64,000 nucleotides of DNA, taken from NCBI RefSeq assembly GCF_000787575.1, contig NW_012236505.1, positions 390,316-454,315 of the forward strand, in the 5' to 3' direction. Both the position numbers and the translations under genes were made by a program. Shown piece after piece: positions 4,794 to 63,016 of the stretch. The notes under the pieces are model-generated. The model was given only the letters and a program-made list of their open reading frames with translations, was not told the DNA's origin and searched no databases. Numbering within the stretch: the first letter of the stretch is position 1; the number at the start of each line of letters is the position of its first letter. This DNA comes from Acytostelium subglobosum LB1. Its lineage: Eukaryota; Evosea; Eumycetozoa; Acytosteliales; Acytosteliaceae.

Positions 4794-7267
4794 TTAGTCC
4801 CATGTCCAAACCTTGAGATTGGATGCCAAGGAACCAGTGAACAGTTGACGGTTCTTTCTCCATAGACAGAGGATGCTGGAACGTGTGTTGATCGATGTCA
4901 GATTCTCGTGAGTGGTTGTGTCGAATATCTGGAGATGGTCGCCAGAGCCAGCAAAGATGCCTTGGTTCGTGACGTGCACGGTCTCCACGCGATCCTTGCA
5001 CTTGAGTGTGTTGGTGCACTTGGTCGTCTTGAGGTCCCATACCTTGACCGTCTCATCGTGCGATCCACTGTACAATGTGTTGTTGTGTGCGTACAATGAC
5101 TTGACCCAGCCTTCGTGGCCCTGGAAGTTGGTCAGCACGCGGTTCGTCTGTAAGCTCCACACAAAGATCTGTTGATCGTTGGAGCCCGAGAACAACAGGT
5201 TGCCAAGCGAGCACACGGCCTTGATGGCACGCGTGTGGCCCTGTAGAGTCTGAATGCATTGATAGCTTCTGAGATCCCATATTTTCACCGTCTTATCGTT
5301 GGAGCCACTGAATAGCAGGTTGTCCTGGATGAAGATCGAGTTGACTTCGTTGGCCTCCTTGATCTCCTTGAGCATGGTCATTGTAGTGAGGTCCCACTCC
5401 TTGATGTAAGAGTCGGCACCACCAGTGAACAGTGTGCCCTTGGGCGAGATGGCCACCGATCTGATCGACTTGCCGTGCGCCTTCACATTGTTGAGGTGCT
5501 TGGGCTGGTCAATGTCCCACACGCCGAGATTTCCATCGTTGGATCCCGTGTAGAGACGTGTCTCAGTGCCCACAATGCACTCTGATTGGAGTCCACGAAT
5601 GGTGTCCAGGTTCCTTGTGCTCTTCAGGTCCCACTTCTCTGTGGCCGACTTGTCGGGCACGATCTCCTGTTGCTGCTGCTGTGGTGCGCTGGCCGTAGAC
5701 GATGCTGCCTGGGCTGGTGGGCTTGCGCGCACTTGTACTGAAATGGGTTGCTGTTGTGGCTGTGGTTGTGGTGTTTGTGCTGGTGCTGCTGCTGGTTGCT
5801 GAGGTTGTTGAGGTTGCTGTTGTACAGGTACTTGTGGTTTTACAGGTTGTGCGGCTGACGCTGCTGCGGCCGCTGGTTGTTGTACATTTGCCGCCACTGG
5901 CTTGGCTGTGGCGACGCTGTTGATTGGTGGCGACACCGCCGCGGCCGCTGGCTTGGACGATGCGATGGGTGGCGATGTAGCCGACGGCGAGGTAATCGGC
6001 GACTGTCCAGGTAGTGGTTTGCCAGGAGACAGCGACATGGGCTTGGCAGGTGGCGTCTTGAGACTGTGGAGGTTGGTGACAGAGGGCTGCTTGACAGCGG
6101 CCTGTGGCGCGGGCTTGGACTTGGCCTGAGCGGCACGGATTCGCTCGAGCTGCTCCTGCAGCTGCTTCTCCTCATCGTCGAGCGAGACGGGTGTGCCCGC
6201 GCCCGATTGGAAGTAGGCCATGTCGTAGTTCTTGGAGGGGCCCGAGGTGGGCTGACCGGCCTGGTTGATGCCGATGGCCTCGTGGAACTCCATGAGCTGC
6301 ACGACGGGTAGAGTGCCACGCAGCAGAGTCTTCTTGCTCTGATTGATCTGCTGCAGCTTCAAAAAGTCGCAGACGGCGTTGCACTTGTGGCTCTGCAGGA
6401 ACTTGTGGAAGCCCGTCTCGCCCAGATTGCCGTCGCCAAAGCCCGATCCCGACTTGGTGTGGATCTGGGGGTCGGTGTAGAAGTCGTTTACACCCTGGAT
6501 ATCGACGATCAACAACTCGTGATTGGAGTTTTCGTAAGAGAAGTGACTGAACGCCTGAGGTGTGTTCCTTGCTTCTGAATTCACGTATCCACTGTTGTTG
6601 TTATGTTTCCTGTGTAATGATTGGAAAAGTGTTTGATTGGATTGATTGAGTGAGTGGAATGACTCCGACACATGTGATTGATATTGATCTTGATCTTGAC
6701 ATACTTGTACTCTCCTTCGATGAATGGCTCACCTCCACAGACTGGGTAGGGGGGTGGATGATCGATGAGCTCGTAGACGTAGGTGGGAAGGAATGTGATT
6801 GGTTTGGGAGGCTTGCTCTCGTTGAACTTCTCTGCCCACTTTGAGCAAAAGGTCTGCATGAGGACATCGGTGAAATAAGAGTCTCTTGTCGTCTTCTTGT
6901 TTGATGAGAACTTGCCCACGAGCTCCATGCCTGGCTTTGACCAATCTTTCAGCTTGTGTGCCGTACGACAACTACCCTTGGCGAATGGCGCCTTTTCAAT
7001 CGTCACGCAGACGATACTATGATGCCAGTGTGGTTTGAGATCATTGTCAATTGTCAATTCCCATCTGTTTGTTGTTCGAATGTGTTTGATTGATTGATGG
7101 ATAGGTCGATGAGTCAATGATTATGTTCAATATATCTGTATCTGGTTGTTGACATGTATCGATGATAATGATGATGATACTGACTTGATTGCTCGCTCAC
7201 AGACAGTGCCTGCAATGACATCTGCCACGGGGAACTTTTGGTTCAAGAGTGCTAATGCATCGGCCAT
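4794..7267 (-). CDS. mhkB: Alpha-kinase with WD40 repeats, myosin heavy chain kinase (MHCK) type
   Basis: Exons 7267-7185, 7064-6705 and 6609-4794 join in frame to 752 residues. The alpha-kinase domain covers about residues 25-245: an ELVGKFSS strand with the likely catalytic Lys, the Gly-rich loop GDGNLGETG, and the zinc-binding KCNAVCDFLKL near its end. A Pro/Gln/Ala linker follows (to about 470), then a C-terminal WD40 propeller with at least six blades of the SGSNDKTVKIWDL kind. In Dictyostelium these kinases phosphorylate the myosin II tail and cause filament disassembly; the WD40 part brings them to myosin. Length and order fit MHCK-B (732 residues) best, but the choice between B and C is tentative. 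The first intron uses GTCAGT, which is unusual here. Confidence 0.87.
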
Positions 7268-8386: not shown

Positions 8387-9439
8387 ATGAATCGGAAATT
8401 GGTAAACGATAGTAGTGATGACAATGATCATACATCATCATCGTCATCGTCATCGTCATCACCATCAACAACAGAAGCAGATAGTATTAGAATGTGCATA
8501 GAAAAGTCTAATAAGAGGAGTAGGAGGCGGCGGTATTGGCGCTTGACATTGTTGTTCTCAGCATTGCTGTTGGGTGTGCTGATATACTTCCAGCCCAATG
8601 TTATAGTTCGAGCCATATCCAATCACTTTCAAGGCGAGGTCGTGTTCTATGTGGACGGTCGCGACGAGGTGGCACGACGCAAGTTGGTCACGCTCACTAT
8701 AGACGACGCACCATCACCCGACACCATGGACATTCTCGATATTCTAGCCGAGTACGACGTCAAGGCCACATTCTTCCTGATTGGAAAGCATGTGATGCGC
8801 AAGCGTAGCAACCAGAACATCCTGGACAGGATGCTGGATCAAGGCCATGAGCTTGGCAATCACATGTGGCAAGACGAGCCATCCATCACTCTCGAGTCCA
8901 AAGAGTTTGAGCGACAGCTAATACATGTCGACCAAATAATCAACAGGACATATACTCGTTATTATGAACGATACAATCAATCAATATCATCAACATCAAC
9001 ATCAACATCAACGACATCATCACAACAACATCAAGACAATGACAACAACAATAATATATTATATACACAAGGTAACTCATTCAATGTGAGAAGGAGGAAG
9101 CTATTTAGACCTGGATCAGGGTTCTTCAATCGACATATGTTGGACACTATTGGAAAGCATGGATATCAACTGTGTCTGGGCAATGTGTATCCGCATGACC
9201 CATTCATCCGCCTGCCATCGGTGAACTCGTGGTACGTGACGGCTACCATCTCGCCGGGCTCCGTAATCATTCTTCACGACCGCACCTATACAATGCCTGC
9301 GCTACGCACCATGCTTCCACAGCTAATTGCCGAGGGCTACCAGTTCGTCACTCTTTCACAACTGCTAGACATTGATGAGCAGATCGAGAAGCGACAGCAA
9401 CAGCAACAACATCAACATCATCATCGGACAAGCGAATAA
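8387..9439 (+). CDS. Membrane-anchored polysaccharide deacetylase (NodB fold)
   Basis: A single-exon protein of 350 residues. A Ser/Asp-rich cytosolic start and a basic cluster (KRSRRRRYWR) precede one membrane helix at about residues 52-70, so it looks like a type II protein with the enzyme outside the cytosol. NodB motifs are in order: TIDDAPS (metal Asp pair), GHELGNHMWQDEPS, RPGSG and IILHD. Family members remove N-acetyl groups from chitin-like or other amino sugars. In classical chitin deacetylases the second motif is His-x-x-x-His; here the second His is Asp, a variant I recall from a eukaryotic/bacterial 'NHM..D.PS' subgroup. A Ser/Thr/Asn tract lies between motifs 2 and 3, as in many dictyostelid proteins. 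Natural substrate unknown; a spore- or stalk-wall polymer is an inference. Confidence 0.85.
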   Translation: MNRKLVNDSSDDNDHTSSSSSSSSSPSTTEADSIRMCIEKSNKRSRRRRYWRLTLLFSALLLGVLIYFQPNVIVRAISNHFQGEVVFYVDGRDEVARRKLVTLTIDDAPSPDTMDILDILAEYDVKATFFLIGKHVMRKRSNQNILDRMLDQGHELGNHMWQDEPSITLESKEFERQLIHVDQIINRTYTRYYERYNQSISSTSTSTSTTSSQQHQDNDNNNNILYTQGNSFNVRRRKLFRPGSGFFNRHMLDTIGKHGYQLCLGNVYPHDPFIRLPSVNSWYVTATISPGSVIILHDRTYTMPALRTMLPQLIAEGYQFVTLSQLLDIDEQIEKRQQQQQHQHHHRTSE

Positions 9440-9792: not shown

Positions 9793-12700
9793 TTAGTTGA
9801 TCATCCTTAGGAGCATTGCCTCAATGGATGCACCTGGACTGAAGGCCATAACAATTCCTTGTTGTAGTCCCTTTCCATTCTCAGCCTTGAGGTTCTTGAT
9901 CTTCTCGATCACACGTTTAAGTACGTAGAGAGCTGAACAGGACACCATGTTTCCATACCACTTCATCACTTCGTAGGACTCGGCCAACTCCTCTGCGCCA
10001 AGGTTGAGACCATTGTGAACAGCCTCCAAGATCTTGCGACCGCCTGGATGCACAGCCCAGAACTCCATGTCACTAATGTCAAGCTCGTGAGCGCCAAGGA
10101 AGCTGTCCATGGTCGACTTGATGTACTTCTCGATTGCGACAGACAGGTGTGGGCGCAGGGACAGGTCAATGCCGCGATCGCCCATATGCATGAACAGTGC
10201 GTCTTGTGAGTCCTTCATCAAATATGAGATGTCATCGACGACTTGAAGCTTGCCAGCCAGCTTGGACTTGGACTGGCAGGTGACCAGTGCGGCAGCACAT
10301 CCATCTGAGAAGATGCAACCAGATACAATGTCACCCTTGTCATTGGGGTCGATGTCCATGTTGGTGGTGGAAGACTCGACTGCCATCACCAGCACGTAGG
10401 TGTCTGGACGGTTCTTGGCGTGGACGGCAGCAGTACGAAGGGCAATGACTGCAGCACCACATCCCATAAAGTTGATCATTGTGCGACCTGCAGTTGGCTC
10501 GAGGTTGAGATCGCGGCACAGCACGGCGTCGATTGATGGCGCAAGGATTCCAGTGGAGGTGACACCAACAACGTGCGAGATCTTGGATCTGTCGATACCG
10601 TTGCGCTGGATGATGCGCTCACCTGCCTCGACAATTGTCTTGTGGACGATGGAGGCAAACATAGTGTTCTTCTCGGATGTGGTCTTGGCGTTGAGTGCCA
10701 TATGATCCTTGGTGTCGACAAACATGTAACGCTCCTTGATCTTGCAGTTCTTGTAGACGTTGGTCATGAATGTGAGCTCGTTGGTGTGGTCCTTGTACGA
10801 GTCAAACACGTGCTTCTGAGTGGTGGCGAATGGCGCTGACAGAGGCTCGATGGCGTAGATGGCTGTTGCGTAGTCGTCGTCATTGTCGCGACGCTGGACT
10901 GGTGCAGTGTGGTTGACGGTGACTGGCACTGGGATGGTCACTACCTCGCGTGGTGAGGCTGGTCTCGACACATTCTTTGGCGATGTGGATACTGGAGAGA
11001 CGGATGCTGGTGTGCTTGGGCTGCTGAATGAGAGTGGTGTGGCGTATGTTGGCAATGAGAGGGCTGGAAGTGTAACATTTTGTTGCACGACCTGAGCATG
11101 ATTTACACGCACTGAAGGCACTTGGAGTGTTGTTGGTGACAACATCATGTGCTTCTTGAGGTCCACTGGCTTCTTCTCATTGTTTGGCTTCTTTGATTGA
11201 ATGATCGATTCAATTGTCCTCTTGACCAACTCATCCTGAGCATTCTTCTTGACACCAGCTGGCTTGCTGGATGAGGATGAAGTGGTGGCGGAGGCAGATG
11301 GGTTGATCTTGTTGATGACAGTGTTGATCGAGGCCTTGGCATCGAGGAGTGAGAGACTTGGAACAAAGACACTGAACTTCTTGTGAATAGAGTTGGACAA
11401 CTCTGAAGCGAGCAAAGAGTCCAGTCCAAGGTCCTTGAAGTTGGCATTGGCGTCAACCTTCTCCAACTTGATCTCCATGATGTTGGAAACAATCTCTTTG
11501 AGTGATTGTTCAATCTCGGCACTTGATTGAGTGTTGTTGCTGACGTCCTCTTGGACCTCATCAGCATGGTGCTCCTCACAGTCATCAACGGCCATGTTGG
11601 CAACGGACTCTACAATGTTGAGACACATCTCTCCTCTGAACGATGGTACTGACGACATCCACTTGTTGAACTTGTAGTCGCAGTAGTGCACAACGGATTC
11701 CTTGGCCTTGACGCTGAGACACTCGACGATACCAGTGGCCATTGCGTCCAAACTGGTGTATGGGGTGAAACCCATGTTGTTCAGAATGAATGTAATGCGC
11801 TCATCGGCAGACATACCAATCTCTGGGATTGGTGCCAAGTGGAGACAGGTGGCGTTCAATCCAGATTGCTTGCGATGCAGTGTGAGAGCCTCGACTAAAC
11901 GGTTGCCAGTGGCGTAGTTGGACTGGCCTGGGTTGCCAAGCGCTGTGATGGCAGATCCGAATGTGACAAAGTAGTCCAATGGTTGCTCGAGAAGCTCGAT
12001 GGATGCATTGTGCAGGTTGAGTGCACTGGTGGCCTTGGAGTGGAATGCAACATTGAATGAGGACAGGGTCTGCTCTACAAGACGCTTGTCTTGGAGAAGT
12101 CCAGCGGTGTGGAACACGCCCTTGATCACATGTCCCTCCTTGATCAACTCGGCAAAGACCGATCTGGTCTTGTTCTCGTTGGTCAAGTCGCACTTCTTCA
12201 CGCACACATTGACTCCGCTCAGACTCTCGATGAATGATTGCTTCTGCTTGGTGTCTGCGCCATTCCTTGAGACAAAGACCAGGTTCTTGGCTCCGAGTTG
12301 GACCATCTTGTTGGCCATTGTCATGGCAAGGCCACCAAGACCGGTGAACATGTAGGTTGCGCCAGTGGCCAGGGTCAAGGGGAGGTCGACAGTGTGAGCG
12401 ACCTTGTTGATGTCGCACCATGACACCAAGTTCTTGCCAATGTGATTGCCAGACGACATGTATCTCAATGATTGAACGACGTTGCTAATGTTGAAGGTGT
12501 TCAATGGCAGTGGGTTGAGGGACTTGGACTCAAACAGTGGCAGCAATGTCTTGTTCATAAGGTTGGCCAAGTATGCTCTGCGGTTGATTGTCATCTGAGC
12601 AACATCAACAGCGAGATATGAGAGGTTGTTGCGGAATGGAAGTAATCCAATCTTTGAGTCAGAGTAGATGTCCTTCTTTCCAATCTCAACGAAGCGTCCG

Positions 12701-15700
12701 TAGTTGGCAAGTGATAGGATGCTCTTGGCAATGAGGTCGCCAGACAGTGAGTTGAGGACAACGTCAACACCTGCACCATTTGTGAGGCGCATGATGTCGT
12801 CGTGGAAGCTGGCATTTCTGGAGTTGAGGATGTGGTCGGCGGCGATGCCAATGGTCTTCATGAACTCGACCTTGTCCTTGGTGCCCACTGATACGAATAT
12901 CTCTGCGCCCAGGTGCTTGGCGATCTGGACGGCGGACAGACCAACACCACCTGCAGCCGAGTGGATGAGGATCTTCTCGCCTGCTTGGAGCTTGGCTTGT
13001 ACGACGATTGAGTACCATGCAGTGAGGAACGTGATTGGGATGGTGCAGGCTTGCTCGGAGGTCATGTTGGTGGGGATGGAGAAGACGAGGTCAGCGTCGC
13101 AGGTGATGTGCGAGCACATTGATCTGGCCATGTTGATGCCAAACACCTTGTCTCCAACAGTGAGGTGCGAAACTCCATTGCCAACGGCTGTGACTACACC
13201 AGCAAACTCATCACCAATGGTGGCAATGTGGTTGGCATCATAGTCTCTTCCAAGGGTCTTGAGGATGTCTCTAAAGTTCAGTGATGTGATGTCCACCTTG
13301 ATCTCAACCTGTCCATCCTTTGGTGACACTCTAGCGGTCTCCACGATTGACAGATCAGAGATGACACCATTATCACAGATCTCGACCTGATAGCGACGCT
13401 CGTCTTTTGGTGCCACCACGGTGCTCTTGATCGACTCGTCCAAAACAAGTTGTGATTGGAAGTCGTAGGTGTATCTCTTTGAGGATCTGAAAGCGACCTC
13501 CCATTTAGATTCGACACGCGATAGCTCGTCCACAAGTAGTGTGGCACAGACTGATGGCGACTGAAGGGTGGCAGAGTCGAGGTCGATCATTGAGCTGTGC
13601 ATGGCGGTGTACTCATTGCAGAATACACGCAACATTCCAATCAATGAGTACTGGGTGAAGTCCACCTGATCAGCCATGTCAATGCTCTGGCCATGCTTGG
13701 TGACCAGTGTCAGACGTCCACTGACCTCGTTGCTCATGGCCTGTTGGAGGATGAGCAGCAAAGAGGCGTAGGATTGCTCGACCAGGGCGGTGCATGGAGC
13801 GGAGACAGTGTTGTTGTCAACAAAGAATGATGGGAGGATGATCATGTGACATTGAGTCTTGGCAAACATGTTGAAGAGATGGATGTAGTCGGCGGCGACA
13901 GGGGTCTTTGGCACAGAGATCACGTTGCCAACAGTGTCAACGACGTAGTGGGTGAGTGAGTCACCAAACTGCTTGACAATGTACAGTTGATCCTGAGTCA
14001 GATTGTGGGTGTTGATCAGACTGGACACGACACTGATTGTCAAATCAGATGATTCATCATCAGCAAACAGCACGTATTTGTTGAAGCGAGTGGTGTCATG
14101 GCTGATGGCACCCTCATTGGACATTGACCACTTGCAGCTGTACAATTGATCATTGAGCTGGACTGTGGCCGATGTGGATTCAGAAGTGGATGATGCTCTG
14201 GCAATGCACTTCATGGTCAGATTGTTGAACTGGCAGACGACTGTTCCATCGGGCTTGGCCACAGAGATATCACAGACAAAGGTGGTCTTGTCCTTGTGAT
14301 TGGTGATCGTGGTGTATGAGTGCAATGGTGCTCTAATGTCTGTGACCATCTGAGGGATCAAGGTCAGCTTGTCGAATGACTGAGGGATCCAGAGTCCTTG
14401 GCGCTTCTGCTCAATGGGCACAAAGCATGATTGGAAGACACCATCCAGCACTGAAGGGTGCAGCAGGGCAAAGTCAGAGTTGGTGTGGGCGTTCAGTTCA
14501 GAGGTGGATGGCAGCACGATCTCAGAAACCTGGCTCATGTTGTCAGACTTGGGAGCACATCTCTTGAGTGCTTGGAATGATGGGCCATAGTTGTAGCCAA
14601 GCTTGACAATCTTGGCATAGAACTCATTGCCATCGATAACATTGTCACACTCGAATGGGTTGTTAACAGAGGATGATTGAGTGTTCTTGAGCTCGGTGAC
14701 GTTGGACTGAGTGATGTTGCCAGTGGCGTGGACGGTCCATTTGACGGGGACGCTGGTGGCATCAGAGATGCTTCCAATCTCAAAGTGGGTCAGCTTGCTG
14801 TTGAAGTTGATCTGCATCACCATGTTGAACTTGGCGTCAATCTCCAGTGCAGTTTGGATCTGGAAGTTGGTGACCTCAAAGTTGGACGAGGGCAACTCGA
14901 GGGCCAACTCGCTCATGGCGGCGTACACCACCTCGAGGAAGAAGGCGTAGGGCACGATAGCTACCTTTTGGATCTGGTGGTCGGCCAAGTACTTGAAGCG
15001 AGACGAGTCCATGGTGACCTCGAATGATGGTGACAATGAGACGAGGCGACGTGTGAGCGAGCTGCGCTTGGGCATGGCCAGACGATCGGTCATTGATTGG
15101 GCTGACTCGATCCAGTAGGTGTCCATGTTCCAGCGACGAGCTGGAAGGCGCAGGGCAGTGTGGCGACGGCGGCGGTACAATGCCTCCCAGTTGGTTGAGT
15201 AGCCATTGACATAGAGCTTGGAGAGCAAGGACATGATTGTGTCGTGGTTTGATGCATCACGCGACATGGTTGACAGGATCACGTGGTTGGTCGATCGCTC
15301 ACGAATCATGTGATTGACAAAGTATGAGATGATGGGGTGGGCAGAGATCTCGAGGAAGCAGTCCATCTCCTCACGGTTCATCAACTCGGTGAGTGCCTCC
15401 TTGAACATGACAGTCTCACGAAGGTTGCTCCACCAGTAGTTCACTCCCAGTGTCTGGTAGTTGGAGGAGTCGATCAGTTGGCCGGTGGTCGTGGAGTAGA
15501 ATGGGACCTTTGGACAGCTGAGGGTGATGTTGGGGAAGAGCTTGAAGAACTCATCCTTGATCGTGTCCATCAGGTATGAGTGGAAGCCTGCGTTGATCCT
15601 GATTGGCTTGAAAGCAACGTGCTCATCCTTCATAATGTTCATGAAGGTCTCCATGGCTGCGTTGCTGCCACTGATGCCAACTGATTTTGATGAGTTGTTG

Positions 15701-17960
15701 CCAGCAATGACGATCTGACCAGCAAGGCCATAGCGATCAGCCAATGCCAAGATGTCATCCTTGGATGACACAACGATGCACATCTTGCCAGTGCCAGTGG
15801 TCTTGTTCTGGAGATGACTGCGAGTCCACATCAACTTGATAGAGTCCTCGAGTGTGAGCATGCCAGCGATGTGAGCGGCAACGACCTCACCCAGTGAGTG
15901 ACCGATGATTGATGATGGGCGGACGCCAGCCTCCTTGAGCACGGCGGCAATGCCGACTTGAACGGCAAAAATTGATGGTTGGGCCAACCAAGTGTCATGG
16001 ATGGCCTCAGTGTTCCTTGGGTCAAACAGCTTGTCGATGAGCGACCAGCCAGACAGAGCTTGGAACAGGCTCGAGCATCTGATGAACTGGCTGCGGAACA
16101 CTGCATTACCCTCAAACAACTCCTTGCCCATTGAGATCCATTGTTGGCCTTGACCCGAGCAGACGAAGGCGATCTTCTTCTTGTCGAATTGATTGGAGGC
16201 GTCTGATGACTCCTTGCGGATGATGCACGAGTCTGAGACCTCGGGGTCATTGATGTAGGACTCCATCTTCTCCTTGAGATCTTGGATAGAGTTGATGAGG
16301 AATGATAGACGGTTTGAGAGATGGTTGGTGCGAACGGTTGAAGTGTAGCAGAGATCCTTGAGACTGATGCACTCGCCCTCATTCTCAATGTACTCGAGCA
16401 TGTCCTGAACGCGCTCAGCCATCACTGCTGGGTCATTCACATTCACAGAGACTGTGAACACCTCCATGTGCTGGGAGGCTGAGATGGCAGCCTCCTCACC
16501 GTCAGAGAGGTCGAATGACGCCTTCAGGTTGGGGATGTAGTTGGAGATCAACACGCTGGCATTGGATCCACCAACACCAAACGAGTTGACAATGGCAAGA
16601 CGTCTGTCGTCGCCCCACTCCATAGTGGTGGTTGGCACCAACAGATTGTACTTGTCGAATGGGATCTTGGGGTTGAGTGTGGCGAAGCCCTTGGTGCACA
16701 TTGGTGACAGAGTCCTCATCTTGAGACTGGCCATTGATCTGAGCACGCCACAAATGCCAGAGGCACCCTCCAAATGACCAATGTTGCTCTTGACACTGCC
16801 GATTGGCAATGGGGTGTCACGATGCTTACCAATGGCATTACCGATTGCTTCCAACTCATTGGCGTCACCCATCTGAGTACCAGTGCCATGACACTCAAAG
16901 TAACCAATATCCTTTGGCAAAACGTTAGCTCCATCCAACAGTCTGTTCAACAGTGCCTCCTGCTGAACAGCTCTTGGTGCTGTGATGCCACTTGGTGTTT
17001 GGCCATTCTATAAAGTATGAGTAAGTTAGTGTCTATCACTTGCTGATGGTTTGATGAATGAAGGTACATACTTGATTGGTGGCAGTATTGATGATAACAC
17101 AGTGAATGTCATCTTTGTCCTTGACAGCGTCGGAGAGATTCTTGAGAATGAGTACTCCAGCACCTTCGGCGCGGACATAGCCAGAGGCACGCTCATCGAA
17201 ACTGTAGCAACGACCGGATGGGTCGGTAGAGAGAAGACCAGCCTTGCCATAGTCGAGTGATTGAAGTGGTGATGATACAATGTTGACACCGCCGACGATG
17301 GCCATGCGACACTCGTCTCTCCATATGCTGTTGGCACCCAAGTGGATGGCAACCAATGATGAAGAGCAGGCAGTGTTGACAGTCATGCTTGGTCCGGCAA
17401 TGTCCAAGAAGTAGGACAGACGGTTTGAAAGGAATGATGAGTTGCAACCCTGTGTGGTAAACTGATTGATCTCAGACTGACCCATCGTGCGTTGATAGTC
17501 AGATGAGCTCGATCCAATAAACACACCAGTAGTTGTACCCTTCAATTGCTTTGTAGACAACTTTGCATCCTCAAGTGCTTCCATCGCAACCTTTAAGTGT
17601 GATTGAGTTAGTGATTGATTGATTGATTGAATGAAAGATACATACTTGAAGGATTAGTCTTTGTTGTGGATCAACTTGAGCAGCCTCTTTGGGAGACATG
17701 CCAAAGAACTGTGGATCAAACTTGTCAATGTCGTTGATGAAGCCACCGATGCGGTTGTTGAGCTTGAACTCCTTGGAAGCAAGGGTGTCAGCATCCCATC
17801 TATCTGTGGGAATGTTTGTCAAACAGTCGGTGCCATTGGCAACAATATTCCAGAACTGATCGATGTTTGTTATATCACCTGGTAGCTTGCATCCAACTCC
17901 AATGATAGCGATTGGTTGATTTCTGAACATCATGATGTTTTGTAAATTTGTGGTAAACAA
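9793..17960 (-). CDS. Steely-type hybrid synthase: type I PKS fused to type III PKS
   Basis: Exons 17960-17646, 17590-17072 and 17007-9793 give 2682 residues. Domains in order: ketosynthase (Cys in TACSSS near 180, HGTGT, SNIGHLEGASG), acyltransferase (GHSLGE near 650), dehydratase (LADHQIQ near 954), enoylreductase (AAGGVGLSAVQIA near 1632), ketoreductase (Tyr of NPGQSNYATGN near 1975), acyl carrier (LGLDSLLASEL near 2139) and a C-terminal chalcone-synthase-like enzyme with its Cys (NFMGCGAAV), His (AVHPGGRK) and Asn (YGNMVSCS). Known Steely enzymes pass an acyl chain from the carrier protein straight to the type III domain: StlA makes an alkylresorcinol-type product (MPBD) and StlB the acylphloroglucinol of DIF-1. 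I see no methyltransferase motif between dehydratase and enoylreductase, and the protein is shorter than StlA (3147) and StlB (2968). I cannot assign A or B. Start could also be the Met pair about nine codons in. Confidence 0.93.
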
Positions 17961-39675: not shown

Positions 39676-40419
39676 ATGTACCAAACATTAATATCAATCT
39701 TTATTCTTACTTGTTGTTTTGTTAATATTTCCAGTGGACATGGATATAGTATCTATCCACCTGCTCGTCAGATTGTATGTGTAAATAACAATCAGAATAG
39801 TATTTGGTGGCCAGAGAATGGAGAGGGTATCAAGGACCAGTGGTGCAAGAATGCCTACCTTCATGTGTACAACAAGTACCACCAGTCATCGCCTGCCAAC
39901 ACTCAATTCGTTCAAATCAACGAGTACTCTGTGTTGATCCCCAACTATTCCCAAGGCCTACCAGCACTAAAGGCTGCCGTTCCAAACGCCATCTGCTCAG
40001 CCCATGCCATCAACGATGCCTCACAGTTTGGTGACAAGTCTGGAATGTCCATTCCCAACACATGGAAGCCCACAGTGATCAAGGCCCTGACAGGCTCCAA
40101 CAGTGTGAACATCACCTACACGTTCTGTGCCACCGCCGCCCACACACCCAGCTACTGGGAGTTCTACGTGACAGTGCCAACATTCAACGGCAAGACCACA
40201 GAGGTGGGTTGGGATAACCTTGTGTTTGTATCACGTGTCCAAAACCTCATGCCAATCGATGGAACCTATCCTGGATGCGGTGGCAGCAAGCTGTTCAAGA
40301 CCACTCTCACCCTGCCCAACCGATATGCCAACGCCGGTACCCTAGTGGCAAGATGGCAGCGTATTGATCCAGTTGGAGAGTGCTTCATCAACTGTTCGGA
40401 CTATGTGATGAGTAACTAA
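39676..40419 (+). CDS. Secreted AA10-type lytic polysaccharide monooxygenase
   Basis: Single exon, 247 residues. A signal peptide of 21 residues ends so that the mature protein begins with His22 (HGYSIYPPARQ), the N-terminal copper ligand of lytic monooxygenases. The second histidine-brace residue is His110 in NAICSAHAIND, and a Phe near 237 (GECFINCSD) fits the axial residue. Other AA10 features are ITYTFCATAAHTPSYWEFYVT and the LP...V.RWQRIDPVGE ending. Cysteines are plentiful, as expected outside the cell. AA10 enzymes cut crystalline chitin or cellulose by oxidation. The domain is alone, with no binding module. In an amoeba that makes cellulose walls and eats bacteria, the substrate is open. 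AA10 is mostly bacterial and viral, so origin is worth tracing. Confidence 0.87.
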   Translation: MYQTLISIFILTCCFVNISSGHGYSIYPPARQIVCVNNNQNSIWWPENGEGIKDQWCKNAYLHVYNKYHQSSPANTQFVQINEYSVLIPNYSQGLPALKAAVPNAICSAHAINDASQFGDKSGMSIPNTWKPTVIKALTGSNSVNITYTFCATAAHTPSYWEFYVTVPTFNGKTTEVGWDNLVFVSRVQNLMPIDGTYPGCGGSKLFKTTLTLPNRYANAGTLVARWQRIDPVGECFINCSDYVMSN

Positions 40420-42496: not shown

Positions 42497-43828
42497 ATGG
42501 AATCAATATTCTCATCACTGTTGGCATCATCATTGCTGGTTGGATTGCCCAGCATCATAATACTATCTGTATTCATATTCTTCTATGTTGGCATTCTGAT
42601 GCGCAAGGTCAACTCTAAAGAGCCACTACCACCGATCATTGCCAACTATATACTTCAATGTCTATTCTCAATCACTTCGTACTGGGACAACATCGTGTCA
42701 CAGGCCAAGATCTATCGCATCTCACACGACTTTATCGTGTTTCAGTGTCTCACCGTGGTGTTCTTGCTAAAGGTCATTGAGAGTCTGCGCAGTGGCGCCA
42801 AGACTCTTGAACAATTGGCCACAATCACAAAGAGCAGCGAACGATCACTGCAGATCCTTCTCAACAAGTTGTCAAAGGAGGGTCATATCCTATACAATCA
42901 GGATGACAACAATTATCGAATCAATGCCCCTCCAGTCAGTCCAGAGGGTGGCAGTGGCGGTGGCAGTGGTGCCGCTGCCAACTCAATTGTACCAAACTAT
43001 AACCTGATGGACGTTTATAACGATCGAATGGACAACACCTACGGTCTGTTTCAACATCCATCGATTGCCAAGGCATGGGGCTCTACCAAGGACTGTCTGG
43101 AGCAGTGCCACTCGTCGATGCATGCCAATCCATCCAACTTTTTCAACTTTATCGACGAGAAGGACGTCTTCCTCAAGAAGATATTCGACGCTGCAATGAA
43201 ACAAAAGGCGGAGGTGATCAAGCTGCAGAGTCTGATATCGTGCCACTTCAACTTTTCAAAGTACAGCAGCGTGTGTGACCTGGGCGGTGGCTTTGGCTAC
43301 CTTGGCTTCCAGATCATCAAGGACCATCCCAGCACCAACGTCATCGTGCTGGACATGGAGGAGACACTCAAGCATGCCGTCGAGATGGCCAACAATGACA
43401 TTCAAAAGAAGGATCTGTTGGCCAACAATCAGATCGAATTCAGAGTGGGCGACGCTCTGCAATCGCGCACCATCCCACTGTGCCAAGTGTACATCCTGTC
43501 TGAGATCCTCGGCGTCTGGAACCGTCATGATTGTCTAAAGATCCTACATTCTATATCCACCGTGCTCAAGAAGCAAAAGGCCAACGGACTCAATGCTACT
43601 CTGATCGTTGTCGACTCTGTAGTCGATGAGAATGGATGTCGCGAGGAGGATCAGCAATGGAACAACCTTGGCATATCAAGTCTGGTGATGATGTCCATCA
43701 TATCAATATTCAAGCGTACCAGGAATGATTGGGAGATGCTTTTCCAAGAGTGTGGTCTGGCCATCCAGTCCATCAAGAAATTATACCATCCACCATACCT
43801 ATCTCTCATTGAATTATATGTAGTGTAA
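42497..43828 (+). CDS. Membrane-anchored O-methyltransferase-family protein, catalytic His missing
   Basis: Single exon, 443 residues. A membrane helix at about residues 12-35 precedes a plant-type O-methyltransferase fold: a winged-helix dimerisation part (FLLKVIESLRSGAKTLEQLA, SLQILLNKLSKEG), a Gly/Ser-rich loop, and the SAM-binding core with DLGGGFGYLGFQI and VLDMEE. In this family the base is the His of a conserved HDW; the matching segment is LSEILGVWNRHDCLKIL, with Gly339-Val in place of His-Asp. Dictyostelids use related enzymes (for example DmtA, which methylates the DIF-1 precursor), but the loss of the base and the membrane anchor make a standard O-methyl transfer doubtful. It may methylate by another route or be non-catalytic. 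It is about 25 kb from the Steely gene, so not clustered. Confidence 0.82.
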   Translation: MESIFSSLLASSLLVGLPSIIILSVFIFFYVGILMRKVNSKEPLPPIIANYILQCLFSITSYWDNIVSQAKIYRISHDFIVFQCLTVVFLLKVIESLRSGAKTLEQLATITKSSERSLQILLNKLSKEGHILYNQDDNNYRINAPPVSPEGGSGGGSGAAANSIVPNYNLMDVYNDRMDNTYGLFQHPSIAKAWGSTKDCLEQCHSSMHANPSNFFNFIDEKDVFLKKIFDAAMKQKAEVIKLQSLISCHFNFSKYSSVCDLGGGFGYLGFQIIKDHPSTNVIVLDMEETLKHAVEMANNDIQKKDLLANNQIEFRVGDALQSRTIPLCQVYILSEILGVWNRHDCLKILHSISTVLKKQKANGLNATLIVVDSVVDENGCREEDQQWNNLGISSLVMMSIISIFKRTRNDWEMLFQECGLAIQSIKKLYHPPYLSLIELYVV

Positions 43829-58204: not shown

Positions 58205-61200
58205 CTACTGTATCTTTGATAACCATGGTCTCATGGAGAGGAAGTCAGAGTCCTGTTGATTGGGTGTCAATAGAGAGGTGAGATTGTGGCTGTAGTCCTT
58301 GTTCATTGCAAGCACGGACTGGATTGTAGACTCGAGCTCCTTCATGGCTCTAAGTTGTTTGGTGTCAAAGCTATCCTTGGCAGTATCTCCAAAACGCTCA
58401 TGGATCAGTCTGGCAGAGAATATTCGTCGCATAAAGTCCAGCTGTAGCAACAACTTCTTACTGTCCGACACCTGAACCATCTTGCCTGGACAGTCAACGC
58501 ATCTGTACGACAGCTCGCGGTAGTTCTTGGTTCCTTTGCCACACTCTTGGCACTTGAGCGTCCAGTCTTGATGTTGTCGAACGTAGTGTCTGGTGATCAG
58601 CGCCAGTTGATTCTTGAGCATTGGTAGTGGAAGTGCTTGCTGGCACGACTCGTTGGTGCACACAAGGCCTATGATTTGGAGACGAACTGGCTTCTCACCC
58701 TCCACGACAGAGACGCCAGAGAACTCCACCTTTGTATTGCATTGTGGACATTCAAATCTTGGCTTCCTGCACTCGGCGAACCTCTTGTCAGCGTCGATTG
58801 CTCGGAATACCTCTGAGTTGTAGCTGTCGGCAGCATCGTCATGGGTGCTGTTGGCCTTTGACTTGTACTTTGTTGTGCTCATACCCAGGTAGGATGCGAG
58901 CTGGACCTCCTCAATACCAAGCAACTGAGTCAAACGGTAGGTGGGGTGTAGGATCTGGGTGGACAGATACCACTCAATGTCAATGGACGAAGGCGATTCT
59001 ACCTCCTTCGGGCTCTTGGCACGCTTGACCCACTCGTTTGGACCCTCAGTGATTACGTATGGCACTTGATCACCGGCCTGCACCAAGTGTCCCTGAGCCT
59101 TCATGGCCAAGGCCACCTGGACATGAGGTTGAGAGTCGGCATCATTGTAGTCCTCTGGTGCTGTGGACAGAGTCTTGGTGATGACAAACTTCTCAACAGG
59201 GACAGCACCGTCACGAAGCTTCTGAGCAATGTCCTCTAGGTACTCTTTGATCAGCACTTGCAGGTTTTTAGAGTCAGAGTCGTCTGGTGACATGATAAGC
59301 TTGAGGATATGGTTGCCAATGTCCTTGGTGAGATCACACCAGTCACGACGGACAATGTCCAGTCCCTTGTTTTGGATCTCACTCTTGAGCTTGCCGTCGG
59401 CCTTGGTCTCGATGAGGGCAGCATATCTCTTCTTGTTGGTGAGCAGTAGACGCTTAAAGATGCCGTCCAACTCGATCTCCATGACACTGCCCCTGTACTG
59501 ATCGTTGATCTTCTTCTTGATCTCTCTGCCAATCTCCTCGGCCTCGTTGTAGGTACCAACACCAGTGTAGATCATAAGGGAGTCTGTATCACCATAGATG
59601 ACATCGTAGTTGAGTTTGGTTGCCACCTCGGAGGAACGTTGCAGATTCTCACGACCAGTACGGGTGACCAACTCGGCCAGGGGAAGGGCGTAGAATCGAC
59701 TGTTGCTGAAGCCCAGACAACCATACATTGAGTTGGCCACCAGCTTGATGGCCTGTTGTCTAATGTCCAATTGCTGCTTTAGTGTATCGTCCTTCTCATA
59801 GGCCAACTGTCTCTTGACCTCGCGACGCTTGGATACGAGATGTTGTAGGACCGATGGCAAGATACCCTTTTGCACGGTGGCTGGAGGTGGCTGTGCCTCC
59901 TCCCAACCACCGTTTATGGTTCGGTTGCCATCCTCTCGTTGCTTCCTCTCGATGGTGGTGAAGCAAACATTGTGCTCCTGAATGATGGATGGATACAGTG
60001 AGTTGAAGTCCAGCAGGACGACATAACGGTCGTAGTAGGCCTTCTTGGGTGGGAGCACAAGACCTCCTGCGTAGGCAGCCTTCTTCCTGCCAAATGACTC
60101 GTCCTTCTTGTAGATCTTGTCGGGTAGAATGTACTTTTGAATGTAGAAGTTGTGCAGCAGCAAGTACTCAATCCTCTCTGCTCTGTTACCAGCAAGGGAT
60201 CGGTTCCAGAGATTACCAGCAAGGTTGGTGAGTTGCTTGGTGAGTGGAAGGAATAGAAGTTTGAATATCAATCGGAACAGGACCTGGCAATCATTCTCAT
60301 TCAACTCAATCAAGAGGTTCAATCTATAGATTATTGAGTATTAGTGTTGATCATCACTCGCCGACAACTGTTGATACATACTTCTTGTCGGTGACGAAAT
60401 ATGATTCAATGCCCAGAATATTGATCTCTGCCTTATCCATGTGTAGCTGACTCTTGCATATCTCTACTAGCTTGTAGCTCTTCTCCTTGTTGAGGAACTC
60501 TTGGCATAGGAGATACGTGTCACAGATGAGACGACCAGTGGTCACCTTGCGCTCTTGGAAAGCATTCTCGTTGTCACCAATGTTTGATGAAAGCTTGGGG
60601 AAGACACTGCGCTTCAATCTTCCAAGGTAGGACCAATTGGTGACCTTGTTGTCCTTCATGCGATGGATGAGCACATCGAGATCAAAGCCAATGATGTTGT
60701 GGCCTGTGAGCACGTCTGGATCGACACTGATGATCGTGTCGGCAATGAACGTGAGTAGTTGTCGTTCGTTCTTGCAGATGGTGAGGTTTGGACGCTTCTC
60801 TGCGCTCTTGGCAAACTCGTGGGGCATGATCTGGCCAGTCAGTGGACGGATAGCAGTGACGTACTTGAGACGTGTCTGAGAGACCGTTGGTGTGGCACCT
60901 TCGATAGAGACCTGCTCGTTGACGACGGCACTCACCATGATGACCTCGGGATGATCGCCATTCTTGACGATCCTCGTGCTGATTGCCATGACGACCACTG
61001 GTGGTGATGCGGGCAGTGCAGTCCTGGGGGCAGAACCAGTGGTGGTTGATTTGGCAGCCTTTGGTGCAACGCCCATTGGCTCAATCATCTTGTAGGACTG
61101 GACACGACCCTCCAGTCTGCACCAGGATATCTTTGAGTTCATATCCAGCGATGGCTTGAAGCCCTTGAGCAGCAGCCAGCTTGGTCCCATGATGTTACGC

Positions 61201-63016
61201 TTGAGCAACATTAACTCGATTGGTGTGGAAGTGATGCCATAGGCAGCCTTGAACGTTCTTCCAGAGATATCATTCCTGAGTGCTGGATAGGTTGATGGAT
61301 AGGTGACCTTCCAGAAGTTGTACTTTCCAATGGCTTGGCTCTTGTTCTCCTCTTTGTAGTCAAAGCAGAATGAGCGCTGCACCTTCTTACACTTCCAACC
61401 CCTGATCCTGTTGCTCTCCATCAGAGACTTGATCTCCTCACGGATAGCCTCCTCAGTTGGCTCGCGTGTTGTTTGTTGTCCAGAGGCATCGTTCATATAG
61501 TCTCGTGGCATCAAGAAAACATTGCGCTCCATACTCTCAACGATGACACAGCACGATACAAACTTAGTCTCACCACCCTTGAGTGTCTGGCGCACCTTGC
61601 CAAACAGGTATATCTTGCCCTGATAGGCACCACCATTGGTATCCTCTTCTGCTGTCAAATAGTAGAACTCAAGACCATCCTTGGAGTCTAATGTTTGAAT
61701 TGTTGATGCTGGTGTGATAAACAATTTGGTTGGTTAGGGAACTGACTAACTGACTAGCCGACGATCACTAGCCAATTGAAATACATACCATCAGAGACTG
61801 ATAGGTTCTCAAGAGTTTGTTGATCAACAACACTGTCCTCAGTCTCAGCCCACCAATCATTGGTTGTCTTGGGTGAGACCAATGATAGTTTGACTGGCTT
61901 TGCCAATGTTTGGATTGATCCCTTTGAAGGAATTGTCAACACCTTCCTTGCGTCTAACTTGGGGGCAGCAGCTGGCTTGGTAGTGGTGGTGGCTGGTGCA
62001 GGAATATCCACATCCTCAAAGCTAAAGTCCATGGCCGAGTCCTGTTGTTGGTCATCGGCAACTAGCTCATCCTTGACATTGATTGGTGCCGCTGATTGTT
62101 GATCGAGCTGCTGTTGCTGCTGCTGCTCCTCCTCCAACTCTTGCTGTTGCCTCTTCTCGTCCTTGATCTTTTGAAGCTCCAATTCATGTCTCTTCTCCTC
62201 GATAGTGTCAATGTCCATCTCTGCATTGGGGTTTGACTGCAGGTCATCCAGATAAAGTTCCAAGGGATCAACTGTTGTAGTGTTCTTTACCAGATTGGCC
62301 TTTTGTAGCCTCTCACTCTGTATAACGATGGTGACGATGTTAGTATCTGTACTACTACATGACATGTGTGATGTTAAATAAACACATACCAGTGATGTTG
62401 ACGAAGTAGTGACACTGCTGGATGATGATTGTGTTGTTGATGGTGCCGCTGTAGAACGATTGAGGAACTGATCCATACGAGTGGACTGTGGAATGGATGC
62501 AGACTTCTTTGAGGCAGCAGTGGCAGCAGGCTTTGACTTTGCTTGACCATCAGCAGTCTTTGTAGTCTTCTTCTTTGATTCTGTCTTCTTCTTTTTTATC
62601 CTTCTCCTTCCAGTCTCTGCCGCCTCCTCACCACTGTAATCATCGACCTGGTCCTCCTCATCACTTCTCTCACCATATCCAAAACCATCTAATGTAGGAT
62701 GACAAAGAGAGGACAAAAGGTCAATATTTGTCATTCAATTGTAGAATACGGTATAAAGATACAGACCATCATCTACAACAAAGTCTCTCTCCTTTCTCTT
62801 TCTCTCCAACTCTTGTTCAATGTCACTGACATTATCCTCCTCTTGATCATCATCAGCAGCACTTTGATCAACGTTTGAGTTGTTATCATCATCGTCATCG
62901 TCTGGCAACTGATCTGATCTCTTCTCCTCACCAGCCTTTGCTCTCCTCAGTGACTCTAATGACTTTGAAACGTTGCTCTTGCCAGAAGCGTTCCTCCTAG
63001 ATCTAGTTGTTGTCAT
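58205..63016 (-). CDS. pola1: DNA polymerase alpha catalytic subunit
   Basis: Exons 63016-62767, 62688-62390, 62317-61789, 61708-60382 and 60323-58205 join to 1507 residues (human 1462). An acidic/basic N-terminal region with a DDGFGY block is followed by the exonuclease-fold and thumb-palm domains: LLDFNSLYPSIIQEHNVCF (motif A), RQQAIKLVANSMYGCLGF (motif B) and YGDTDSLMIY (motif C). Near the C-terminus lie two Cys clusters, ECPQCNTKVEF and KCQECGKGTKNYRE with CVDCPG, which bind zinc/iron-sulphur and the B subunit. With primase it starts each Okazaki fragment. The 72-nt second intron has no stop in frame, so retention would add 24 residues. The first donor is GTCTGT. A TTTGGCGC site lies about 120 bp before the ATG. 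Confidence 0.95.

Follow-up and report, generated by a model that had tools for sequence, protein, structure and literature searches.

A probable second StlB-type Steely synthase gene in Acytostelium subglobosum

Steely synthases and the gene at this locus

In Dictyostelium discoideum, the type I half of the Steely hybrid polyketide synthase (PKS) StlB makes a hexanoyl chain, which its type III domain extends and cyclises to THPH (2,4,6-trihydroxyphenyl hexanone); at a late developmental stage the type III domain is released by cleavage, after which it supports the synthesis of a chlorinated dibenzofuran (PMC9489281). The gene is adjacent to chlA, and the two share a promoter region (PMC9489281). 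Publications on Acytostelium subglobosum speak of one As-stlB. The D. discoideum stlB- mutant was rescued by A. subglobosum stlB, as its chlA mutant was by the respective chlA, and the same authors concluded that A. subglobosum does not use DIF-1 signalling and suspected a distinct polyketide, while naming possible shortcomings of their DIF-1 detection (PMC4058090). Here we describe a gene in a stretch of 64,000 nucleotides from A. subglobosum LB1 (contig NW_012236505.1, positions 390,316 to 454,315; hereafter the window), which, judging from its sequence, is quite probably a retained second copy of StlB that would make an acylphloroglucinol of the DIF type.

The gene runs on the minus strand from an ATG at 17933 to the end of its stop codon at 9793 and encodes, in three exons, an intact protein of 2673 residues with no internal stops. 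An earlier sequence-only reading had placed it at 9793-17960, which was nearly right; at position 17960 a longer reading frame opens with TTG, and not the gene itself, so the start, strand and exons given here amend that reading. Exon 1 (17646..17933; residues 1-96) holds the start and the first part of the ketosynthase (KS), exon 2 (17072..17590; residues 97-269) the part of the KS with the active-site Cys171, and exon 3 (9793..17007; residues 270-2673 and the stop) everything from the remaining KS to the type III domain, with the acyl carrier protein (ACP) through type III in one uninterrupted exon. The introns, of 55 bp (17591..17645) and 64 bp (17008..17071), are both GT...AG. Matches to Pfam follow the order KS, acyltransferase (AT), PKS_DH_N/PS-DH for the dehydratase (DH), ADH_N/ADH_zinc_N for the enoyl reductase (ER), ketoreductase (KR), PP-binding for the ACP and Chal_sti_synt_N/C, which bears out the domain order KS-AT-DH-ER-KR-ACP-type III that had been read from the letters. 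This is the layout of a Steely protein, that is, a type I PKS with a C-terminal type III PKS in a single reading frame.

The catalytic residues noted by the sequence-only reading were likewise recovered. A motif search found them in the KS (C171/H309/H347), the AT (15208..16167; residues 550-869; S640/H745), the KR (11827..12360; residues 1819-1996; S1954/Y1967/N1971) and the type III domain (9796..10875; residues 2314-2673; C2452/H2589/N2622). The serine of the ACP (11317..11505; residues 2104-2166), in the motif GLDSL, was identified by reading the sequence, as the search pattern was too narrow and missed it both here and in the second copy described below. The AT carries an AGFHS motif, which we take to point to malonyl-CoA, and the ER (12430..13365; residues 1484-1795) a GGVG motif. 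The DH (14188..15033; residues 928-1209) has its His946 and Asp1124, with the Gly of the HxxxGxxxxP motif replaced by Lys, and the nucleotide motif of the KR reads TGLGGLA, with Ala in place of Gly. Between the ACP and the type III domain lies a linker rich in V, P, S and T (10876..11259; residues 2186-2313).

The slot between the DH and the ER (13366..14187; residues 1210-1483) is without a methyltransferase (MT) domain. No Pfam family matched the region 13330-14217 (residues 1200-1495) at E<=1, which agrees with what had been read from the letters; in the same scan, exon 2 of the StlA-type gene on another contig (C56) served as a positive control and gave Methyltransf_23 (1.1e-12) and Methyltransf_12 (1.4e-12) between its DH and ER. 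The motif EIGGGTG is present in the C56 protein and was not found in the window protein. D. discoideum StlB (Pks37) is described without an MT in a paper in which a figure legend notes that the MT domain or the MT lid is missing in some PKSs, and the stretch that corresponds to the slot is there a structural subdomain of the KR (PMC12828403); the domains KS, AT, DH, ER, KR, ACP and PKSIII are listed for StlB of both D. discoideum and A. subglobosum (PMC4058090). The slot of the window protein is most likely such a KR structural subdomain as well. A predicted structure of slot, ER and KR together (871 residues, from a two-row alignment) had a mean predicted local distance difference test score (pLDDT) of 37 and was unusable. 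The protein had also been read as about 290 residues shorter than D. discoideum StlB, which fits the length of 2968 residues that we assume for the latter. This difference is not caused by an MT in D. discoideum StlB, because that protein is described without one (PMC12828403), and the shortfall is no evidence about methylation; the tagged D. discoideum protein is about 352 kDa (PMC9489281). For the same reason the absence of an MT fits StlB and marks nothing special about the species; the proposal that it, or the shortness, is informative on A. subglobosum is not supported.

Relationship to StlA and StlB

Searching the 30.73 Mb genome with the chalcone synthase C-terminal family yielded five places, namely the window gene (C29) and matches on C55, C56, C40 and C30. 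The C30 match appears from its sequence to be a ketoacyl-CoA synthase of the elongase kind. On C40 (L004:1471-2697, minus strand) there is a stand-alone type III PKS of 408 residues whose Cys, His and Asn were seen in position on reading; it is 25% identical to the window domain, at most 31% identical to any row of the tree below, and sits on a very long branch.

Among solved structures, the best relative of the window type III domain by score is PDB 4b0n (191 bits; 38% identity over the compared stretch), which we take to be the phloroglucinol synthase PKS1 of Ectocarpus. Against D. discoideum Steely1 (2h84) the window domain scores 117 bits and the C56 domain 499 bits, and the C56 and window domains are only 27% identical to each other. 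In a 36-row tree of type III sequences, which were gathered with the window domain as first query and whose trees carry long-branch warnings, the window domain has that of C55 as its partner (100/100), and both belong to a 16-row set with 4b0n and actinobacterial pks18-type enzymes (96/84); the C56 domain, and not that of the window gene, pairs with Steely1 (100/100), contrary to the grouping that was to have counted against an StlB assignment. Holding the StlA and StlB type III domains as one clade was disfavoured (p-value of the approximately unbiased test, p-AU, 0.012; 0.064 without four plant rows); for the type III tests four long rows, C40 and three bacterial ones, were dropped. The StlB-type rows of the tree are the window and C55 domains, from this genome only. 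A published primer for D. discoideum stlB encodes the decapeptide AFSPGASIEA, which occurs unchanged in both the window and the C55 protein but not in that of C56.

The product of StlA is methylated, and it is on this and on the C56 gene that we base the use of an MT as a hallmark of StlA. The window gene shows neither an MT between DH and ER nor a type III domain grouping with 2h84, and is not of the StlA type; that role is taken in this genome by the C56 gene.

Furthermore, the KS domains tell the two types apart. The genome has 11 KS matches, ten of them within six genes and one weak; the sixth gene (C48), whose KS shares only about 30% identity with the rest, is possibly not a PKS. In a KS tree of 10 rows, from which the C48 KS was left out, C56 groups with the PKSs C52 and C33 at 100/99, and a single clade of the C56 KS with the two StlB-type KS domains was rejected (p-AU 8.8e-5). 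One origin of the Steely fusion is rejected on this ground, and less firmly by the type III trees; together the KS and type III trees suggest two separate Steely fusions. A distant relationship between the two steely genes has already been published (PMC3188802) and is therefore not new here. The PKS family of A. subglobosum has been counted at 6 members vs 41, 21 and 25 in three other dictyostelids, with the order of columns deduced by us, and A+T at 55% vs 66-78% in other dictyostelids where given (PMC4334915). The coding sequence of the window gene has 51% G+C, vs 43.7% for the whole window.

A second copy beside a chlorinase gene

On C55 lies a gene for a complete StlB-type synthase (2635 residues), and its two introns are placed as in the window gene. 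The two proteins are identical at 1868 of 2618 aligned residues (71%), with the highest identity in the type III domain (88%) and the KS (83%), followed by the ER (76%), the AT region (74%), the ACP (72%), the DH (68%), the KR (65%), the slot (46%) and finally the linker (34%). The ratio of nonsynonymous to synonymous substitutions (dN/dS) by the NG86 method is 0.22 overall, 0.12 in the KS and 0.085 in the type III domain, and ranges from 0.09 to 0.33 across the catalytic and carrier domains, these ratios being rough because dS is near 1. Both StlB-type copies are under purifying selection, and given these identities, the dS near 1 and the low dN/dS, the duplication is not recent. To compare the flanks, frames of at least 70 residues from 120,765 bases of C29 were matched with those from 70,000 bases of C55 at E<=1e-4. 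Apart from the synthase genes themselves, a single further pair of regions matched (C29 at about 361.6-362.7 kb and C55 at about 781.8-782.7 kb), distant from both synthases. A segmental duplication is rejected on this result; as the flanks are otherwise unmatched, the gene alone, introns included, was duplicated.

Head-to-head with the C55 synthase (start codon at 755948) lies a flavin halogenase gene (C55:758313-760291, plus strand), with about 2.4 kb between the two starts. It has a WIWMIP motif, matches PF04820 at 3e-9 and resembles FADH2-dependent halogenases in the PDB (PltA, 1.6e-10). It was absent from the matches of the genome searches with PF04820 and PF01494 and came to light when the flank of the C55 synthase was read; a genome-wide protein search then gave two matches, both exons of this gene. 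There is no chlorinase beside the window gene, the sole gene matched in that protein search being the one that adjoins the C55 copy. Since the stlB-chlA neighbourhood of D. discoideum is thus found at C55, the gene there is the positional StlB, and that of the window is an additional copy. A chlorinase neighbourhood is a property of the locus and not of the protein family. A candidate halogenase about 15 kb from the window gene (C29:384976-385215), the sole PF04820 match of the genome search, resembled the partner in an stlB-chlA pair but was rejected. It is part of a flavoprotein gene (C29:384976-386007, minus strand; L022:4394-5731) in which FAD_binding_3 (5.5e-20) beats PF04820 (9e-9), with no WxWxIP on reading; we presume the protein to be a geranylgeranyl-reductase-like enzyme and not a chlorinase.

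Several other genes lie in the window. A polysaccharide deacetylase gene (8387-9439, plus strand; 9.4e-23) adjoins the 3' end of the synthase and is convergent with it. At 4794-6671 (minus strand) an alpha-kinase domain is followed by WD40 repeats, a layout seen in myosin heavy chain kinases, and at 39676-40419 (plus strand) there is a lytic polysaccharide mono-oxygenase of the LPMO_10 family (1.8e-26). Two adjacent frames at 58205-61724 (minus strand), with DNA polymerase family B, exonuclease and polymerase alpha zinc-finger domains, probably belong to a single, intron-containing gene. An O-methyltransferase of the PF00891 type (42497-43828, plus strand; 5e-23) lies about 25 kb away from the synthase. 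The genome has 11 PF00891 matches, grouped into 8 loci; with about that many loci genome-wide, finding one at such a distance carries little weight, and we do not claim a cluster of the two genes. Rfam and tRNA scans of the window gave no matches.

Predicted product, alternatives and comparison with known systems

For chain length, ring closure, product, timing and linker cleavage we infer the following course of events. The type I half, iterative and similar to a fatty acid synthase, would build a short, unmethylated, saturated acyl chain on the ACP, by analogy hexanoyl. The type III domain would accept this chain, add three malonyl units and close the ring to an acylphloroglucinol, THPH or a homologue of other chain length, with the skeleton of the DIF type; C-methylation would be impossible for the protein itself. 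Any cut that releases the type III domain would be expected in the linker. A DIF-type acylphloroglucinol is a likely product because the MT-less layout is that of D. discoideum StlB.

Some observations weigh against this assignment. It depends on one decapeptide, a grouping apart from StlA, a missing MT and a chlorinase that stands beside the sister copy. The structure 4b0n groups directly with actinobacterial rows (99/96) and not with the StlB-type domains, so that the likeness of these domains to 4b0n denotes no sister relation, and a clade made up solely of 4b0n and the StlB-type pair was not recovered, nor could it be rejected (p-AU 0.169). Besides the roughness of the dN/dS ratios, the YN00 method gave a value for the KS alone (0.128/1.46). 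The Gly positions of the DH and KR motifs are replaced in both copies (in the DH of C55 by Asn), because of which full reduction of the chain is not certain. As no chlorinase lies near the window copy, its product may never meet ChlA. Finally, one sentence in the literature credits the acyl chain of DIF-1 to Pks1/StlA (PMC12828403), where other papers credit StlB.

Of the alternatives, the most remote is that the window gene is an StlA which lost its MT. Only the shared Steely layout speaks for this, and we give it hardly any credence, given that a separate StlA-type gene with an MT exists and that both the KS and the type III domain of the window gene group apart from StlA. A decaying duplicate is also very improbable. 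The low identity of slot and linker and the Gly replacements in DH and KR would be expected of one, but the 2673 codons run without a stop, the splice signals are intact, the dN/dS of the catalytic and carrier domains is low, and the chlorinase-linked C55 copy has changes at the same Gly positions. A less remote, though still unlikely, case is that the published A. subglobosum stlB, and the main copy, is the window gene, with C55 as the extra one, whereupon the chlorinase linkage would be uninformative on the source of the DIF-type precursor. Both copies are intact, with common introns and domains, and the published gene (accession AB902921) was taken from top TBLASTN hits (PMC4058090). Yet C55 keeps the stlB/chlA neighbourhood of D. 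discoideum, and the published time courses of As-stlB and As-chlA are very similar, as expected from a shared promoter (PMC4058090); As-stlB is more likely the C55 copy than the window gene. In the published text that was searched, figures and supplements being outside its scope, there is no mention of a second A. subglobosum StlB (PMC7259674, PMC12828403, PMC4334915, PMC4058090, PMC12767764, PMC9489281, PMC3188802, PMC4164351, PMC2726288 and PMC10559540), and the wording 'homologs of stlB ... and stlA' in one of these (PMC4334915) could denote a single gene of each kind or several.

The most probable of the alternatives is that the window gene is an StlB copy that has diverged and yields another product, for instance a compound with a chain of other length, a pyrone, or an acylphloroglucinol left unchlorinated that serves as a signal or an antibacterial. 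We regard this as possible but on the doubtful side. It agrees with the lack of a chlorinase near the window copy, with the lower identity between copies in the KR, DH and slot than in the KS and type III domain, and with the report that found no DIF-1 signalling in A. subglobosum and suspected a distinct polyketide (PMC4058090); against it, no domain is better conserved between the two copies than the type III domain, by which the ring chemistry is set. Somewhat more speculative still is the proposal that an acytostelid duplicated its DIF synthase and that the chlorinase-free copy, kept by selection, makes an unchlorinated or different acylphloroglucinol as the substitute for DIF-1 in A. subglobosum. 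The source of the suspected polyketide could naturally be sought in an additional StlB-type gene that has no chlorinase beside it; redundancy of the two copies is as likely. Our preferred reading remains that of a second StlB with a DIF-type product. Given two StlB-type genes and one MT-bearing StlA-type gene in the genome, the window gene alone does not decide which polyketides the species can make, a question that the sequence-only reading had expected it to help settle. With two intact StlB-type synthases, of which one is chlorinase-linked, the rescue result, the published time course of expression and the suspected polyketide should be interpreted copy by copy, and the pair is suited to asking which use is made of a DIF-type pathway by an amoeba that lacks stalk cells.

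Set beside the known systems, the window gene is an ordinary member of its family, mildly interesting as an unlinked, retained paralogue. It shares with D. discoideum StlB (Steely2) an MT-less type I half fused to a type III domain (PMC12828403). The primer-derived decapeptide is a further point of identity. Unlike D. discoideum StlB, the protein is about 290 residues shorter, on the length we presume for the latter, and the gene does not stand beside a chlorinase and has a second copy in the genome. With the published As-stlB, compared by description only, it has the same seven domains in the same order (PMC4058090). It resembles StlA in being a fusion of type I and type III PKSs, but the StlA-type gene of this genome differs in the MT between DH and ER, in its distant type III domain and in a KS that is closer to two other PKSs of the genome than to that of StlB. 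Finally, 4b0n, the best-scoring solved relative of the type III domain, is a chain of 414 residues with no type I part in the solved structure, unlike the window protein, in which the type III domain follows a complete type I half.

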